Below, piece after piece: positions 1 to 8,704 of a DNA stretch of 39,137 bases; the first letter of the stretch is position 1, and the number at the start of each line of letters is the position of its first letter. This DNA is from Patescibacteria group bacterium (GTDB taxonomy: Bacteria; Patescibacteriota; Patescibacteriia; JAXHNJ01). Position numbers and translations under genes: made by a program. The notes beneath the pieces were generated by a model, which saw nothing but the letters and a program-made list of their open reading frames with translations, did not search any database and was not told where the DNA came from. The DNA is taken from positions 243,166 through 282,302 of the forward strand of contig JAXHNJ010000002.1 of assembly GCA_034520665.1 (NCBI GenBank), in the 5' to 3' direction.

Positions 1-3000
1 CTGAGAACTGACAGTGGGGTTTAAGGTTATTTTTATAATCTCATCCTCTGAAAAACTGTCCTTTAACTGATAACCAACGTAATAATCTCTATCAATAGCA
101 ATATTAGCATCCTGATTTTCCTCATCAATATCGGCTGGTTTCTCATAATTAGCCACTAAACCAACAGTACCCGTAATATCTGAAAAAGAAATATTTTTTC
201 GATCATTCGAATTTAAAACCAGCTCTAATATTTCATTATTTTCAAGACTAACCTCTTTATTCTCCCCGGAAATTGAATAAGAAAAGCTAACCGCTTGACC
301 GTTTAAATTAGGTAAAGCCTTGATTAAATAAGCAATTTGGTCAAGATTGTGGAGATTATTTTCAGCCGGGTGATTAATAGCATAATTAAACAATTCAAAG
401 GCTTTATCAGAGCCTACTATAGCCCCGACAACAGCCGCTTGATAGGAATATTCCGTGTAATCATCGCCTTGAGTGCCAAGATTTATTCTAATATAAGGTT
501 CTTCCTCAACCCCATGGACTTTTATCAAATCATTGAGAAGTGAATGAGCATATTCTTTGGCTCCGATATTGGCAACAGCCCGAATTAAATAGAGTTTAAG
601 CTCAGGAGTTAAATTTTCATTTTGTAAAAACAGATTGATATCAGTTAAAACCGGCTCACCTAAATTGGCCAAACCTAAATAAGCATAAACTGCTTCATCA
701 GTGTTAGTTTGGCTATCCTCTAAAATATCATAAAAATATTCTTTAGCTGCTGTTTTTGAAAATGACTCCGTGTCAGTAGCCAGGGCTTTGGCGGTCAGTA
801 ATATCTCTTCTGATGAATAAGGTAAAAGAGAAATACCTCCCTTTTCAGTCTGATAATGGGAAAAATCAAATGTTTCTGGAGTAGTTTTTTTATCAAAATA
901 GTTATTAAGTAAAACCTGGCTATAATATTGCATCATTTTTTGATCAACTCTATCACCGCCAGAGAAAAGACCCCTTTTCAAAAGATTATAATATTGGCCT
1001 CTTTCCTTATTAGTGAAGGTAAGATTGGTCAAACCATCTTCATTTCCGGAAATATTCAGTCCTTCAGTTAAAGTATAATAATCAACAACGTATTTTTTAT
1101 GATTTGTTTTAATTAAATTAAATTCTTTAGTAACTATATCTTCAAGATTGCCCGCAGTGGCTTTGACTCTTATTTTATGTTTGCCAGCCGGTAAATCCGG
1201 CAGAGAAAATTCTACTAATTCAAAGCTTTTGGCTGTGTATTTTTGGGAAGAGATGTCTTGATCCGGATAATTAACCTCAAAATTTACTTCCTCTCCAGAA
1301 GATAGTTCTTGGCCAAAAGAGCGCAATTTAATTTTGGGCTTGTCATCTGTAAGATAGTTCTTGGCCATTGAGATATTAACAAAAAAGGGCTGAGTTACTA
1401 TTATGGCTGTTTGGCTATCACCTACTTTTAAATCATCGGTTACCGCCTGCACACTGGTCTGCCAAGAGGTAATATTATCCGGAAGTTTAAAATTTACTTT
1501 GGCCTTTCCCTGACCGTCAGTTTGAGCAGTGCCAAAAAAAGCTATATCCTGAAAATTATCCCGACCTGCTTTATTATTATGAACATAAACATTATCAGCA
1601 AAAAAAGTGTGATAATTTTCAATGTGTAAATTATAAACTGTTACCGGTTCATTATGTTTTATAATTGAATTAATGAATATTTTTTTACCGGAAGAAAGCT
1701 CTAACTGATCTCCAAGCTTGGCTCGGCCAATAGGCTGCCAAACCCCATTAAGATAAACAATATGAACGGGGGTGGCTTTTAGAAAACCATTAATTTCAAG
1801 ATATTCATTAAGAAAATGTCTTGATTTACCCACTACTTTAGCTTTAACTAATTTATTTTTATCCGATTTTTCTCTGGTCAAGACATATTCGCCAACTTCT
1901 ACCTGACCAATATTCTTCTGCTCTTTATCTGACATTAATATCTGAGTATCTCCAGTAAAACAGCCACCGCCTTCAGCTCCGATTGAGTCTATTTTTTTAT
2001 GGGAAGTATAAGAAGCAGTAAGAGAAGAAGGAATTTTAGAATATATTTTACTCTGTATGTTTCCCCAACGCTCCCAGGATATCATGGCTAGAGCTTCATC
2101 AATTAAAGAAACATTTACCTCAGCTTTTTTCACTGCATCATTATTTTGATCGGTTACCTCAATAGCTAATTCTGCCTTTTCTCCTGGCTTATAAGCGGCT
2201 TTATCCGGGAACGTTTTAATATTTAATTTTTTAGAATCAGAATCAAATTCAACTATTTTTTGATGAGTAGTATGGTAGGATCGACCGTCAAATACAATAC
2301 CACTAACATAAATATTAGGGGCAAATTTTTCTTCAAACTGAAAACTTAAATTCGCTTGATTGGAGACACCAACATCAAAAATTCCATTCTGGTCTTTAAA
2401 ATAAAGTATTTTATCACTTTCAGACGGTGTAAAAGGAGATTCATTTTTATTTAAAGTTAGTTTAACTTCTTCCTCAATATTATACTTACTATTTTCCGGG
2501 TCAAGTTCTTTTTCTGTAACCAGATAATAACTGTCATAAATAGAGTTCTGGCTGTGATAATAACTAGAATAATTATTTTTAGAATAGTAATAAGTTTCTT
2601 TTTCAGTTACTCTTCCCTGGTTATCATTAGTAGTCACCACTATTTTATAATTTTTTTCGGATTCAGGATTAAAGGAATAAGAAAAAATGCCTTTCTCGTT
2701 TGTAATTAAACTTTCTTCTTCAATTAAATCTTCATGTTTTTCATACCGATAATTTTTTACTGTTTTTTTATTAATAAAATCATAACTGGTGTCTTTTTCT
2801 ATCTTTTCATACCAGAGATGATAAATTTTTAAATCAGCAGAAATATCAGCTACTGGATCACCCTCATAATCCCAAATATATTTATCCGGCTCAGCGTTAA
2901 TTTTATCCAGAGAAACATTATAAATAAGACCTGATATTTCCCCTCCCTTTTTAGCTGTCAGATCAATATCATAATGCGGGCCAAAAACACGAAAATAAGC

Positions 3001-5007
3001 TGTGGCCGTAATATCCGCCACTTCAGAATTTTTAGGATGAACTCTTAAATAGGCGGTATAAGGATAATAATTATTTTGAGTGTAGCTTGTTTCATAACTG
3101 ACTTCTATTTCTCCTTTATCATCAGTCACTCCCTGGCCGTCGCCAAACTTGCCGTTATATTTTAGTTCCAAACCAGAAACCGGGGTGCCGTCAAAAAAGG
3201 AGGCCTTTAACTTATAAACGGCTTTTTCTCCCTCAAAAATTGCTTTTTTAGGAGTAGTTATCTCAATTTTATAGGGAGGTTTGGTATAAGTTTTTATATT
3301 AATAGATTCGCGTGAGATTACTTCTCCATTATCAATAGCTAACAAACTGTAATATCCGGGATTAATATTGGAGAAAGATAATTCACCCTGATAAGTGCCT
3401 TTTTCAGAAATATTGACTGAAGTTTTGGCCAAAGTAGTTATTTTTTCCTCTCCATTAACCCTCTTAGTTTTAGCCAGTTTTATGGTTAAATTCTCTAAAT
3501 TAGAACCATTCCTTTTTTTAGCAATACCCCAAAAGTATATTTTATCTGTTGGCTGGTAAAGATTTCTATTGGGATAGAGATAAGACCAATAATATTTATT
3601 CTGAGCTATGTTTCGTCCCCAATAAGAATAAGAACTGTCTTCTGTAGGCACTAACAAATTTTCACTTCCTTTTGAAAGAGTGAAGAAATAAAGACTGTCT
3701 CTATAATAAATCCCCTCTTCGTCTTGCAACTCTAACGGTGTTTCAAACTCAGCTAACCCCTGACTATCGGTACTGGCCGAAAAATCTTCATTTTCTGAAA
3801 AAGAAATTTTAATATCTGATACTACTTCATCTGAATTAAGGCTGTTTACCCACATAAAAGATTTGTTAGGGCTGCCATAAAAAGCGGTTGATAAAGAGGA
3901 TATTTGTAAAAAAGACTGGTCTTTTTCCTCTCCGGCTTCTGCCTCCACTAAATAATATCCGTTTTTTAAATTATCCGGAAAGAGAATAACTTCATACCAA
4001 AAATTTGTTTGTTGTAAATCAGCTGTAAATGATGAAACTGATTCCAGAGAATCCGTAGGATAAGGCTTGTTTTTCCGGTAGAGACTAGCCCAATAAGGTA
4101 TGTCTTTATACTGCTCTATCACCGCATTTTTATAGGCTTCAAAATTATGAAATTTCCAAACCTTAACCTCTACAGAATTAGCCTCGGTACCTCTTTCATA
4201 AAGACTTAAGACAGGAGCGTCATTATTTGGAAATTCATAAAAGTTATCTATAAATCTAAAGCTTGAATAGGAGGTTGATTCTTCACTGGCTTCAGTTTCA
4301 AATCTAAAAACAATTTCTTTAGACAGTTTTTTATCCGTACCAGCCAAAGGCAGACCTTTTTTTATTTTTACTGTGTAGAGAGTGGCTGGCTTCAAGCTCT
4401 TAGGAACAAAAACTAATGTTTTCCTGTATTTTTTAAAATTACCCTCAGGCTTCGGTTGAATTTCAATGTAATCCTCATAATTTTCATAATTTTCATGTGA
4501 AAAAGTTATTTCAATTCCTGAATCAAGCGGCACGCTAGTAGCTTTATCCCTAGGCAAAGTACTGGTAATTTTAAAAATATCTTTTGTTTGAAAAGCCCAG
4601 GCAAATTCTTTTTCTTGACCTGGGTTTGGTTTTACAGTATTAATTTTGAAGTTATAAATGGTATTTGTGGCCAGTTCTTTTTCCGGAACAATTTTAAAGG
4701 TTTTATTATTAGAAGATTCCAGTTTATAATTTAATGAAGGGCTAATAGCTAAAGCCGTTTTAACCTTATCTTTTTCAACAGCGTGCTGGCTGTCCAAAGT
4801 AAAAGAAGAATTTTTATCCACCCCCAAAGAATCTATATTATCGGCTCTTAAAGTAAAGTCATAATCTATTTCTGAAACAAGGGGAGGTTTTTCTGTATTT
4901 GTATTTTTTATGAGCTCACTTTTAAAAAAGAACTGCCAAGTAGTAAAAGCCGCTATGATCAGGGTTAAAGCCAAAGCTAAGGTTAGAAAAGATTTTTTAT
5001 AAAGCAT
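1..5007 (-). CDS. Alpha-2-macroglobulin family surface protein with internal Hint domain (3' end outside window)
   Basis: Read on the minus strand from ATG at 5007 there are 1669 codons without a stop before the window edge, so the C-terminus is missing. The start MLYKKSFLTLALALTL is a signal/anchor segment. A Big_5-like domain lies near residues 140-240. The MG2-type motif NRNLYQPTDKIYFWG is near 480. A bait-region domain ends in a glycine-rich hinge near 1012-1015, and the A2M domain follows near 1147-1190 (LPDNITSWQ). Family members trap or inhibit proteases at the cell envelope. A Hint domain of 129 residues interrupts the hinge (separate entry). Where family members carry the C-x-E-Q thioester, this protein reads SGGDRVDQ (about residue 1345), with no Cys, so covalent trapping is unlikely. 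The gene lies 111 nt downstream of a membrane-anchored protein gene and may be expressed with it. No clear Shine-Dalgarno is visible. Family assignment is firm; the actual target protease is unknown. Confidence 0.88.
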   Translation of the reverse strand, partial: MLYKKSFLTLALALTLIIAAFTTWQFFFKSELIKNTNTEKPPLVSEIDYDFTLRADNIDSLGVDKNSSFTLDSQHAVEKDKVKTALAISPSLNYKLESSNNKTFKIVPEKELATNTIYNFKINTVKPNPGQEKEFAWAFQTKDIFKITSTLPRDKATSVPLDSGIEITFSHENYENYEDYIEIQPKPEGNFKKYRKTLVFVPKSLKPATLYTVKIKKGLPLAGTDKKLSKEIVFRFETEASEESTSYSSFRFIDNFYEFPNNDAPVLSLYERGTEANSVEVKVWKFHNFEAYKNAVIEQYKDIPYWASLYRKNKPYPTDSLESVSSFTADLQQTNFWYEVILFPDNLKNGYYLVEAEAGEEKDQSFLQISSLSTAFYGSPNKSFMWVNSLNSDEVVSDIKISFSENEDFSASTDSQGLAEFETPLELQDEEGIYYRDSLYFFTLSKGSENLLVPTEDSSYSYWGRNIAQNKYYWSYLYPNRNLYQPTDKIYFWGIAKKRNGSNLENLTIKLAKTKRVNGEEKITTLAKTSVNISEKGTYQGELSFSNINPGYYSLLAIDNGEVISRESINIKTYTKPPYKIEITTPKKAIFEGEKAVYKLKASFFDGTPVSGLELKYNGKFGDGQGVTDDKGEIEVSYETSYTQNNYYPYTAYLRVHPKNSEVADITATAYFRVFGPHYDIDLTAKKGGEISGLIYNVSLDKINAEPDKYIWDYEGDPVADISADLKIYHLWYEKIEKDTSYDFINKKTVKNYRYEKHEDLIEEESLITNEKGIFSYSFNPESEKNYKIVVTTNDNQGRVTEKETYYYSKNNYSSYYHSQNSIYDSYYLVTEKELDPENSKYNIEEEVKLTLNKNESPFTPSESDKILYFKDQNGIFDVGVSNQANLSFQFEEKFAPNIYVSGIVFDGRSYHTTHQKIVEFDSDSKKLNIKTFPDKAAYKPGEKAELAIEVTDQNNDAVKKAEVNVSLIDEALAMISWERWGNIQSKIYSKIPSSLTASYTSHKKIDSIGAEGGGCFTGDTQILMSDKEQKNIGQVEVGEYVLTREKSDKNKLVKAKVVGKSRHFLNEYLEINGFLKATPVHIVYLNGVWQPIGRAKLGDQLELSSGKKIFINSIIKHNEPVTVYNLHIENYHTFFADNVYVHNNKAGRDNFQDIAFFGTAQTDGQGKAKVNFKLPDNITSWQTSVQAVTDDLKVGDSQTAIIVTQPFFVNISMAKNYLTDDKPKIKLRSFGQELSSGEEVNFEVNYPDQDISSQKYTAKSFELVEFSLPDLPAGKHKIRVKATAGNLEDIVTKEFNLIKTNHKKYVVDYYTLTEGLNISGNEDGLTNLTFTNKERGQYYNLLKRGLFSGGDRVDQKMMQYYSQVLLNNYFDKKTTPETFDFSHYQTEKGGISLLPYSSEEILLTAKALATDTESFSKTAAKEYFYDILEDSQTNTDEAVYAYLGLANLGEPVLTDINLFLQNENLTPELKLYLIRAVANIGAKEYAHSLLNDLIKVHGVEEEPYIRINLGTQGDDYTEYSYQAAVVGAIVGSDKAFELFNYAINHPAENNLHNLDQIAYLIKALPNLNGQAVSFSYSISGENKEVSLENNEILELVLNSNDRKNISFSDITGTVGLVANYEKPADIDEENQDANIAIDRDYYVGYQLKDSFSEDEIIKITLNPTVSSQ
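1576..1962 (-). other. Hint (intein-like/BIL-type) domain inside the macroglobulin bait region
   Basis: Residues 1016-1144 of the macroglobulin. The segment opens with CFTGDTQIL (block A, catalytic Cys), has the block B pattern T-x-x-H in KATPVHIVYLNG, block F YNLHIENYHTFFADN, and ends in VHN. At 129 residues it is a mini-Hint without an endonuclease. The residue after the terminal HN is Asn, not Cys, Ser or Thr, which fits A-type bacterial intein-like domains rather than canonical inteins. Immediately before it is GAEGGG and immediately after it NKAGRDNFQDIAFF, the normal A2M hinge and domain start. Expected chemistry from the family: N-S acyl shift at Cys1016 and Asn cyclisation, giving self-cleavage or splicing. 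Whether it cleaves here is inference. Confidence 0.88.
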
Positions 5008-5118: not shown

Positions 5119-5877
5119 TTATATTTCAGTAAAGATTAAATCATAACTAACTACTGGATCACTGTTAGCTATTACTTCGGAATCATCAGCTCCCCAGCCA
5201 CCGGTTTCGCTATCTTCTTTATAAAAGGCAGCCGAGTCATAGACTTCTAAAAGATCTCTTTTTAAAACATTATTGATATCAAAAGTTTGGTCGTTATAAT
5301 GAAGACCATAGGCCTGATAAAAAGTGCTGGTCGTTTTAAAAGGCTCCCGTATTTCCGGGCAGTCTAAATAAACATCAGTGGCTTCAGATAAACCACTGGT
5401 CATAGCCAAAATATCAACCATGGTTTCTTTATTACAGTAAATATCCAAAAAAGTACCAGCCATACCTTCAGAACCGGCTTTTTCTTTTTCAACATTATTA
5501 GCCATATAATAATAACCACTGGATAAATCAACCTGAGTCGGTTCAGATTTTGGTAAATTATCATTAACCTTATAAAAATAAGCCACATGAATCGGGTAAT
5601 CCCATTCTTTGTTAATCTTAATCCCGACCCGGCCGTCTACTTTACCGTCAGAAGAAGTGACTGACCAGGTGCTACCATCATATTTCATTAAACTAGCGTA
5701 CGGGTCAGAAGTATTATTAGTATTGGCAATTGAATTATTGGTAATACTAGTGTTAGTATTAGTATTACTTTCCTCACTCTTGTTTAATACAAAATAAACC
5801 CCCATAGCTCCCAGGATCACCAAAATTACTACTATAATTATTACTATTAATTTGCTTGATTTTTTATTGTTTTCCAT
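5119..5877 (-). CDS. Membrane-anchored extracytoplasmic protein, unknown function
   Basis: A 252-residue protein with a short charged N-terminus (MENNKKSSK), one long hydrophobic segment (about residues 10-31) and an Asn/Thr/Ser-rich linker (about 36-58) leading to a polar domain. This is the usual build of a single-pass protein with its domain outside the membrane. I do not recognise the outer domain. The gene sits just upstream of the macroglobulin gene on the same strand, so the two may work together at the envelope. A TATAAT-like -10 lies at 5905-5910 (minus) without a good -35. An AT-only 11-bp hairpin (5093-5122) overlaps the stop codon and is at best a weak terminator. A 20-codon ORF upstream (5942-6004, minus) looks non-coding. 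Confidence 0.75.
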   Translation of the reverse strand: MENNKKSSKLIVIIIVVILVILGAMGVYFVLNKSEESNTNTNTSITNNSIANTNNTSDPYASLMKYDGSTWSVTSSDGKVDGRVGIKINKEWDYPIHVAYFYKVNDNLPKSEPTQVDLSSGYYYMANNVEKEKAGSEGMAGTFLDIYCNKETMVDILAMTSGLSEATDVYLDCPEIREPFKTTSTFYQAYGLHYNDQTFDINNVLKRDLLEVYDSAAFYKEDSETGGWGADDSEVIANSDPVVSYDLIFTEI

Positions 5878-6043: not shown

Positions 6044-8704
6044 CTAACTTTCAAAATCAAGCCAATGGTACCGGTTATTAAATAATTTCCATAGATCAAA
6101 AACTAACCAAAGGACAATAAACGAAAGCACGGGCATGAGCCATCCGCTTATTCCAATCGGCGCTGTTTCGAATATATGTCTGGCCGGCGTATAAATAATA
6201 ATAATGGTAGCCACTAATGAAATAAGAGAGGCATAAACCAAATAAGGATTGACAAAAAGAGAGCGGCCAAATACCCCTTTTCTAAATGAACGGAAATTAA
6301 AAGCCGAAGCAATTTCCAAACTAATTAGCGTAGCCAAAGCCACGGTCCGGGAATAGACAATATCATAACCCAAAATATTAAAAGAAATATAAAAAGAAAT
6401 TAAAGTTAAGAGAGCCATAAAAAGCCCGTTACCTAATAACAATAAAGCAAAATCTTTAGTGAGAATACGTGCTTTTTTTCGCGGTTTTTCTGACATCAAA
6501 TCACCCGAAGAAGGGTTAAGGCCGAGAGTGATGGCCGGGAAATTATCCGTGACCAAATTCATAAACAAAATCTGCAGCGCCAGCAAAAGAGGCACAAGCC
6601 AGCCCAAAAACGGAGCTAACAACACACCAACAAAAATAATAAGCAACTCGGCTACATTAACCGATAACTGATAAGCCACAAATTTACGGATATTCTTAAA
6701 AATAGTCCGTCCTTCCCGAATAGCATAAACAATAGTGGCAAAATTATCATCTTTTAAGGTAAGATCCGCCACTGAGCGGGAAACATCGGTTCCGTTTTTG
6801 CCCATGGCTACTCCAATATGCGCTTCCTTAAGAGCCGGGGCGTCATTAACCCCATCCCCGGTCATAGTGACAATCTCGCCATTAGTTTTTAGAGCTTGCA
6901 CCAACCGCAGCTTATGCTCGGGTTTAACCCGGGCAAAAATAACCTTTTCACTAATAATATTTTCTAATTCCTCATCAGTGGCTTGCTCAATCTGGCGGCC
7001 CAACATAGTCTTTCCAGAAAGCCCAATCTGTCTGGCGACTGCTATGGCCGTTTCCTGATAATCGCCGGTAATTAACTTAACCCCAATACCAGCCTGCCGG
7101 CAATTGTCAATGGCTTCCTTGACTTCTTCGCGCGGCGGATCATCCATACCCAAAAGACCCAAAAAAATTAAGTCCTCTTCAAAATCATCTTTATTAAATT
7201 TCTTAATTGGTTTATAAGCCACGGCTAAAGTACGCATTGATTTTTTGGCTAACGATTCCTGAATTTTTTCTATACGCTCACGGCTTTTTTGATTCAGATG
7301 TTTTCGGCCCTGGCTAGTCTCTATAAAAGAGCATTTATCAATCATCATTTCCAGAGCTCCCTTAGTATAAACAAAATTTCCTTCAGGCGTTCGACAGAGT
7401 ACAGACATTTTTTTGCGTTCAGAATTAAAGGGTATTTCTTCCGCTCGTTCGGCCATTAAATCATCTTTAAAAATCCCGGCTTTAGCAGCCATGACCAAGA
7501 GAGCCGCCTCAGTCACACTGCCAATAGGATGATAAACACTTTTTTCGCCGGTCCGCTTGATAGCAGCATCATTACATAAAACACTAGCCGTTAAAAGACG
7601 GCTGATAACCGGATTTTCAAGCGGTTTAATTATTTTGTCTTTAATAGAAAATTCGCCTTCGGCTTCAAAACCCGCCCCGGAAACACTGATCAGGCCCTCC
7701 TCACTCCAGATTTTGCTGACGGTCATTTCCCCTCGGGTTAGAGTGCCGGTTTTATCACAGCAAATAACAGTTGTTTCTCCCAAAGTTTCAATAATAGACA
7801 TCCGGTTGACAATAGCATTTTTTTTAGCCATACGATGAGCGCCAACTGACAGAGTAGAGATTAAAACAACTGGAAATCCCTCGGGAAAAGCTGAAATAGA
7901 AAGAGCAATTACTAAAATTATAATATTATAGATGTGTTCCTGAGAGAAAACAGAAGTTCGGAAGAGCATCAAAGCACCAGTAGCCACAGAAATAACTACG
8001 GCCACAATAACCATATAGAGGGCAATGCGATTGATTTTTTTTTGCAGAGGAAGCTCTTTCACCGACTCGCTAATACTGCGGGAAATTTCTCCGAATTTTG
8101 TGTTCATACCAGTATGAACAACCATTGCCAAACAATGCCCGTAAAAAACATAAGTACCCATAAAAACCTGATTTTCCGCTTTGGCTTTATTTATATTCTT
8201 GACCGCAAATTTCCGGACCTCTTTTGATTCACCGGTTAAAGTAGATTCATTTACCTGTAATTCTTTTTCTTCAATGACCACGGCATCAGCCGGTATTTTT
8301 TCTCCGGTTCGCAAAACTAAAACATCACCAGAGACAATTTCAGAAGAGGGAATTTCAACTTCCACTCCGTCTCTTTTTACCACAGAAATTGGCAAAAGCA
8401 TGCCTTTGAGGGCTTTAATGGCTTTTTCTGACCGGTATTCCTGTATAAAGCCGGTAACAATTATAACTAAAATCACCGCTATAACTGTATAAGCAGTAAT
8501 TGATTTATCAACCATAAAGGAAAGAATCACCGCCCCTAAAAGTAAGTAAACAACAAAATTCCCCCTAATTTGGCGGAGAAAAATAAAAAAAGGCGAAACG
8601 TTACCAACCGAATGGATTTCATTAGGACCATACCGGGCTAGTAATTTTTTTGCCTTATGGGTAGAGAGGCCGTTTGTAGATGGTTTTTGTTTTTGTTTTT
8701 TCAT
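6044..8704 (-). CDS. P-type cation-transporting ATPase, SERCA/PMCA-like (P2) Ca2+ type
   Basis: An 886-residue protein of full family length. It shows an N-terminal cation-ATPase domain (GLSTHKAKKLLARYGPNEI), the actuator motif TGES (157-160), the phosphorylation motif CCDKTGTLT with D317, the nucleotide-domain KGA motif, TGDYQETA, and the hinge TGDGVNDAPALKEA. M4 carries PEGFP (274-278; SERCA has PEGLP). M5 has NVAELLIIF and M6 has NLVTDNFPA, so the Asn, Glu, Thr and Asp ligands of the two SERCA calcium sites are in place. It therefore probably pumps Ca2+ out of the cytoplasm using ATP; other divalent ions (Mn2+) are possible. It has its own promoter (8730-8758) and is divergent from the reverse-transcriptase unit. 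No neighbouring gene suggests a pathway. Confidence 0.93.
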   Translation of the reverse strand: MKKQKQKPSTNGLSTHKAKKLLARYGPNEIHSVGNVSPFFIFLRQIRGNFVVYLLLGAVILSFMVDKSITAYTVIAVILVIIVTGFIQEYRSEKAIKALKGMLLPISVVKRDGVEVEIPSSEIVSGDVLVLRTGEKIPADAVVIEEKELQVNESTLTGESKEVRKFAVKNINKAKAENQVFMGTYVFYGHCLAMVVHTGMNTKFGEISRSISESVKELPLQKKINRIALYMVIVAVVISVATGALMLFRTSVFSQEHIYNIIILVIALSISAFPEGFPVVLISTLSVGAHRMAKKNAIVNRMSIIETLGETTVICCDKTGTLTRGEMTVSKIWSEEGLISVSGAGFEAEGEFSIKDKIIKPLENPVISRLLTASVLCNDAAIKRTGEKSVYHPIGSVTEAALLVMAAKAGIFKDDLMAERAEEIPFNSERKKMSVLCRTPEGNFVYTKGALEMMIDKCSFIETSQGRKHLNQKSRERIEKIQESLAKKSMRTLAVAYKPIKKFNKDDFEEDLIFLGLLGMDDPPREEVKEAIDNCRQAGIGVKLITGDYQETAIAVARQIGLSGKTMLGRQIEQATDEELENIISEKVIFARVKPEHKLRLVQALKTNGEIVTMTGDGVNDAPALKEAHIGVAMGKNGTDVSRSVADLTLKDDNFATIVYAIREGRTIFKNIRKFVAYQLSVNVAELLIIFVGVLLAPFLGWLVPLLLALQILFMNLVTDNFPAITLGLNPSSGDLMSEKPRKKARILTKDFALLLLGNGLFMALLTLISFYISFNILGYDIVYSRTVALATLISLEIASAFNFRSFRKGVFGRSLFVNPYLVYASLISLVATIIIIYTPARHIFETAPIGISGWLMPVLSFIVLWLVFDLWKLFNNRYHWLDFES

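Follow-up and report, generated by a model that had tools for sequence, protein, structure and literature searches.

A membrane-anchored macroglobulin with an embedded Hint domain

We identified an alpha-2-macroglobulin (A2M)-like gene on the reverse strand of the window, the 39,137-nucleotide stretch of DNA analyzed here. Its open reading frame begins at position 5007 and covers 1–5007 (−), with the C-terminal end beyond the window edge; in the whole genome it runs continuously, stop to stop, over 1766 codons. The features are as follows, with slashes in later motifs marking the borders of the Hint domain.

1–5007 (−): membrane-anchored A2M-like protein with embedded Hint (Pfam; Foldseek 3.9e-43 to E. 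coli and Salmonella A2M)
4924–4989 (−): N-terminal hydrophobic segment, putative membrane anchor, residues ~7–28, read by eye: LTLALALTLIIAAFTTWQFFF
3337–3582 (−): MG2 domain, residues 476–557 (Pfam PF01835, 2.2e-9)
2089–2505 (−): A2M bait-region domain (A2M_BRD), residues 835–973 (Pfam PF07703, 5.5e-11)
1963–1980 (−): N-side of the bait hinge, GAEGGG, residues 1010–1015; an uninterrupted GAExGGG in Hint-less relatives
1576–1962 (−): Hint domain, similar to bacterial intein-like (BIL) domains, 129 residues, 1016–1144 (Pfam, profile and fold; AF2 pLDDT >90 over most of it)
1960–1962 (−): catalytic Cys1 (Cys1016), present in 67/67 relatives
1762–1773 (−): block B TxxH, T1079...H1082, in 67/67
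1576–1581 (−): block G His1143-Asn1144, in 67/67 (Asn1144 at 1576–1578)
1570–1575 (−): +1 Asn1145 and +2 Lys1146; +1 is not a Cys, Ser or Thr nucleophile (read from the sequence)
1324–1533 (−): A2M family domain after the bait, residues 1159–1228 (Pfam PF00207, 1.1e-10)
940–957 (−): GDRVDQ where the thioester motif is expected, with no CxEQ (read from the sequence)

The MG, bait-region and A2M domains occur in order, with Pfam scores above the cut-offs, and Pfam also reports Big_5 for the whole protein. In Foldseek, a model of 1190 residues matched the E. coli and Salmonella A2Ms, then CD109, A2ML1, C3, C5 and TEP1; the whole-chain superposition is loose (TM 0.3–0.45), as expected because this is a flexible, multi-domain chain. 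The internal CxEQ thioester, a type I A2M trait, is absent and GDRVDQ stands in its place. Bacterial A2Ms without a thioester (type II) count as accepted family members (PMC5764988), so the window protein stays in the family. These analyses confirm the reading frame as that of a predicted membrane-anchored bacterial A2M lacking the internal thioester. The A2Ms of Patescibacteria have been regarded as putative shields against host proteases, with no mention of a Hint domain (PMC8080830, PMC9793634). Upstream of the A2M gene, 5119–5877 (−) encodes a small membrane-anchored protein of 252 amino acids with no clear Pfam family; this gene is adjoined by one that appears by eye to encode a P-type ATPase (6044–8704).

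The Gly-rich bait hinge is split by the Hint domain (GAEGGG/C...TxxH...HN/NK), with NKAGRDNF downstream. The preliminary description had placed a Hint domain of 129 residues at 1576–1962, from Cys1016 to Asn1144, with intact catalytic residues and an Asn in place of the splicing nucleophile, and all of these coordinates and residues proved correct. Pfam PT-HINT matches residues 1031–1144 (3.9e-9 with the whole protein, 6.2e-11 with a 200-aa segment). The GC content of the Hint is 0.315 vs 0.33–0.35 elsewhere in the gene, which amounts to no difference, and the same holds for codon usage. A family profile built from 35 A2M-Hint regions matched the PDB entry 2lwy at 4.9e-20 and BUBL1 BIL2 (6tmm/6y75) at ~1e-19, and scored lower on the RecA intein (8.4e-11) and on hedgehog. 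AlphaFold predicts the Hint part of the region with confidence, and the resulting model has BUBL1 BIL2 and 2lwy as its top Foldseek matches; it also aligns over its full length with Xenopus A2M (7s62), with poor superposition.

By sequence and predicted fold, the domain is closest to BIL domains. It combines the traits of the type-A BILs, namely the Hint fold, Cys1, TxxH, a C-terminal His-Asn and a +1 residue other than Cys, Ser or Thr. Canonical (class 1) inteins have one of these three residues at +1, and this was found in 0/67 relatives. A PT-HINT polymorphic toxin would have a C-terminal toxin domain after the Hint, where the window protein continues with its A2M domain and remaining A2M parts; nor does the arrangement match Hedgehog, in which the Hint is C-terminal and has a sterol-recognition region, as the Hint here is internal with A2M on both flanks.

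The bait site and its conservation among relatives

The segment of the profile that follows the Hint aligns with human A2M 721–795, where the human bait region ends, and with C5 766–826; the segment before it aligns with C5 451–628. We take the human A2M bait to be ~690–728 and C5a to be 678–751, and the Hint therefore holds the bait position, which is also the site of the anaphylatoxin insert in complement C3/C5. This agrees with the earlier assignment of the Hint to the bait hinge. Hint-less relatives read GGAExGGGG...VRxNFxDTA at the same place, and about 30 such relatives have a Gly-rich hinge that is unbroken. The hinge without the Hint has a median length of 54 in carriers vs 59 in Hint-less proteins, and the near-equal lengths indicate that the Hint was added to the hinge and not exchanged for it.

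A class sample, a phylum sample and a scan of GTDB contigs together gave 67 distinct A2M-Hint fusions, of which nearly all belong to Patescibacteria. The class sample (381 genomes) contains 24 genomes with the fusion in one piece, by our own count from the table, and ~46 with an A2M whose match is interrupted precisely where the Hint begins and ends; the fusion was found in 20 of the 380 genomes of the phylum sample. The contig scan used two peptide patterns only and found 42 loci (L051–L092) with ~40 fusions from Uhr-, Gottesman-, Peregrini-, Collier-, Portnoy-, Doudna-, Kerfeld-, Davies-, Woese-, Buchanan-, Wirth- and other candidate bacteria. It also yielded one MAG titled Micavibrio (L084), with a thioester-bearing A2M-Hint and a Memo gene downstream; the protein is nested among patescibacterial sequences, and the locus may be either a mis-binned contig or a horizontal transfer. 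One A2M-Hint genome (G043) has a second, divergent A2M-like protein of ~1300 residues (L017/L021).

The Hint site is identical in all 67 fusions; random placement in relatives, which the preliminary description had named as a refutation, was not seen, and no A2M in the sampled genomes has a Hint elsewhere in the chain. The 67 distinct relatives with the same layout, together with the continuous reading frame, rule out chance or an assembly artifact. The open-access literature yielded no description of an A2M with a Hint or intein, in Patescibacteria or otherwise, consistent with the earlier remark that the combination has no standard description. The parts are known; their combination and the fixed site appear to be new.

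Cys1, TxxH and the terminal HN are intact in all 67 sequences, and Gly occupies −1 in 64. The +1 residue is D in 25, E in 18, Q in 13, A in 6, N in 3, and G and K in one each, and is never Cys, Ser or Thr. Every fusion has a Lys within +1 to +3: in 66 it stands at +2 or +3, and the remaining one has it at +1. The patterns of the contig scan include GCF at Cys1 and exclude the TxxH, HN and Lys positions, and fusions known only through profile searches carry the same catalytic and Lys residues, so selection bias should be limited. As a control, most of the Hints that the same profile finds in GyrB/DnaB-like hosts of the phylum show Ser or Thr at +1. Lys follows the Gly run in 8/29 Hint-less A2Ms, five of which belong to one distinct group (a count uncorrected for kinship). 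Other surface proteins with a terminal or near-terminal Hint often read HN/K there, and a nearby Lys may therefore be a trait of this Hint family.

Other Hint-bearing proteins were seen in the same searches. The products of L128 (2116–13322, +) and L131 are large surface proteins with many repeats, by eye of FG-GAP/VCBS type, that carry a Hint at the extreme C-terminus; such Hints end in HN/KPPG or similar, two have Ser at position 1, and three lie in one gene cluster. Apparent GyrB inteins (SAGG/C...HN/S) and a further HN/S Hint occur in Patescibacteria (L195, L198, L199, L196).

History of the Hint domain and neighboring genes

The Hint requires ~10 changes on the A2M tree and is present in both thioester-bearing and thioester-less branches. 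Host and Hint trees have 21/64 splits in common, far above the sharing in shuffled trees (mean 0.27, maximum 3), which indicates that the Hint is a long-term resident and not a mobile intein. The correlation of Hint and host distances is 0.38 in the thioester-less group, 0.79 in the thioester-bearing group and 0.22 overall, and this lower overall value means that some exchange is possible. In Wirthbacteria-type A2Ms (L089, L152, L153) the Hint at this site is longer (139–141 aa) and has diverged further, perhaps through an independent insertion or a replacement; the tree suggests a second insertion, yet the AU test does not reject a single origin of all A2M Hints (p 0.46). Long residence with several losses fits best, and repeated gain at the same site is possible.

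The Hint fold and the insertion at a conserved spot would suit a mobile intein that arrived recently in the A2M gene. This reading is extremely improbable: 129 amino acids leave no room for a homing endonuclease, the +1 nucleophile is missing, the A2M Hints are compatible with a single origin, and the congruence of host and Hint trees rules out a recent arrival. Alternatively, the Hint could be an inert insert, a decayed intein retained as a folded spacer in the hinge. In favor of this, Hint-less relatives are about equally frequent or more so. Against inertness, five catalytic residues are invariant in 67 sequences that are roughly 30–50% identical, and dN/dS of the Hint is 0.025–0.11 in the close pairs for which it could be estimated, like that of its neighbors, with synonymous sites near saturation. 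By these estimates the Hint is under purifying selection, and we consider an inert insert quite unlikely. The conservation of the residues shows that a function has been selected; it does not show the product of the reaction.

In this genome a Memo-family gene (PF01875, 5.7e-22; L187, 8011–9033, −) lies just outside the window, downstream of the A2M gene. A Memo gene follows most Hint-bearing A2Ms (37 Hint-bearing loci), most of the Hint-less loci and nearly all Hint-less A2Ms that lack the thioester; it usually overlaps the A2M stop codon and in some loci is fused to a second, CapA-like domain. We found no description of this conserved A2M-Memo gene pair of Patescibacteria in the open-access literature. 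A subset of A2Ms, both Hint-bearing and Hint-less, has an ECF sigma factor gene directly upstream, for example L056 (2319–2978, +), L200 (6500–7069, +) and L098 (781–1401, +). These sigma-linked A2Ms have an N-terminal cytoplasmic extension before the membrane anchor that looks anti-sigma-like by eye and has no Pfam match; the A2M may be the outer part of a sigma/anti-sigma sensor. A tie of the Hint to either neighbor is ruled out by the Hint-less A2Ms that both also accompany; the Memo and sigma neighbors go with the A2M, not with the Hint.

Proposed processing of the hinge

Because 67 relatives keep both the site and an intact cutting machinery, we propose that the type-A BIL-like Hint, which holds a constant place in the bait hinge of a patescibacterial surface A2M, probably processes this hinge itself, the trap thus acting on its own bait. 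From the anatomy, site, residues and conservation described above, we infer a chemistry of three steps. Cys1016 would attack Gly1015, which would then carry a thioester; cyclization of Asn1144 would cut the chain before Asn1145; and resolution of the thioester would release the 129-residue Hint. For the last step, by analogy with known BILs, resealing of the hinge by an amine (on the side chain of Lys1146, or the one set free on Asn1145) has something close to an even chance. Hydrolysis would leave the bait open and the molecule in two chains, as a self-made trigger or maturation cut; this outcome is possible and carries distinctly less weight. It is unlikely that the Hint does not cut at all, and rather more unlikely that the thioester is transferred to an outside amine, for example on an attacking protease or the envelope.

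Type-A BILs, which end in His-Asn and lack a +1 nucleophile, mostly cleave; they can also splice, through attack of the released amine on the thioester (PMC4031507). In BUBL1 BIL2 the splice is made to a Lys side chain through an isopeptide, and the N-flank can be transferred to other proteins (PMC8616854). Given this precedent and a Lys in 67/67 fusions, resealing should be no less likely than cutting by itself. We tentatively suggest that the bait could be resealed through the conserved Lys (+2/+3) as a branched isopeptide hinge, or that the Gly thioester could be passed to a protease when one is present; if true, the trigger or thioester of the A2M would have been replaced by an intein-based device. 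Against the Lys route, the conserved Lys could be a feature of charge or fold, and other surface Hints often have Lys at +1. Self-processing as a whole is weakened by the roughly 30 relatives whose A2M does without the Hint, which makes the domain dispensable over long times.

The two ends of a Hint lie near each other in known Hint folds. In human A2M, the change is triggered by discontinuity of the bait, not by its length, and cuts or an extension have no such effect as long as the bait stays continuous (PMC9352918). By this rule, a cut without resealing should spring the trap and a cut with resealing should give an ordinary bait; an uncut Hint, its ends close together, should keep the bait continuous and the trap set. 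A built-in trigger, in which the Hint leaves its cut unsealed and this break itself springs the A2M change, replacing or adding to protease attack, would accord with this behavior and with the missing +1 nucleophile in all 67 fusions. However, CxEQ is kept in 14/67, where an unregulated cut would waste the thioester, so that an early unsealed cut is disfavored at least in those; the Lys near the junction in every sequence also speaks against it, and no regulator was identified. We regard such a trigger as possible, if somewhat doubtful.

The 53/67 fusions without CxEQ, and the conjugation of the BUBL1 BIL2 N-flank to other proteins, would fit a covalent capture in which an amine on a trapped protease or on the envelope attacks the Gly thioester formed by the Hint, as a substitute for the thioester that most of these A2Ms have lost. 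Yet thioester loss does not follow the Hint, as Hint-less A2Ms mostly lack the thioester too and 14 proteins have both. Hint and thioester do not trade off, a general substitution of one for the other is unsupported, and we think capture improbable. Overall, we favor self-excision with resealing and rank the trigger only slightly lower; capture through the thioester of the Hint is possible and finds no support in co-occurrence.

In the A2M family, bait cleavage is taken to trap proteases through a conformational change, and its members, from bacterial traps to complement, are understood as switches that an external protease operates by cutting the bait. A conserved lineage whose bait bears its own cutting, and perhaps resealing, enzyme would represent a different way to set or mature this switch, and BIL domains, whose purpose is poorly known, would gain a clear host and site.

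With the type-A BILs of C. thermocellum (2lwy) and T. thermophila (BUBL1 BIL2; 6tmm, 6y75), the A2M Hint has in common the fold, Cys1, TxxH, His-Asn and a +1 residue other than Cys, Ser or Thr; it differs in lying in a bait hinge, at a site fixed across the phylum, with Lys at +2/+3 and a predicted activity. Hedgehog autoprocessing domains have the Hint fold and Cys1 thioester chemistry in common with it and give a weaker match; their Hint is C-terminal, has no Asn step and uses cholesterol. Among bacterial A2Ms, those of E. coli (YfhM/ECAM) and Salmonella have MG domains, bait region, A2M domain and C-terminal region in common with the window protein, which matches them in fold (3.9e-43) and, in the C-terminal part, by profile. 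Unlike them, it lacks the CxEQ thioester, has a Hint in the bait and is followed by a Memo gene. The ANA domain of complement C3/C4/C5 is likewise a folded domain of ~75–130 residues at the bait position that a cut can release, and the flanks of the profile match C5 on either side of what we take to be C5a. The ANA domain is helical and is freed by a protease, whereas the A2M Hint has a catalytic beta fold and should bring about its own release.
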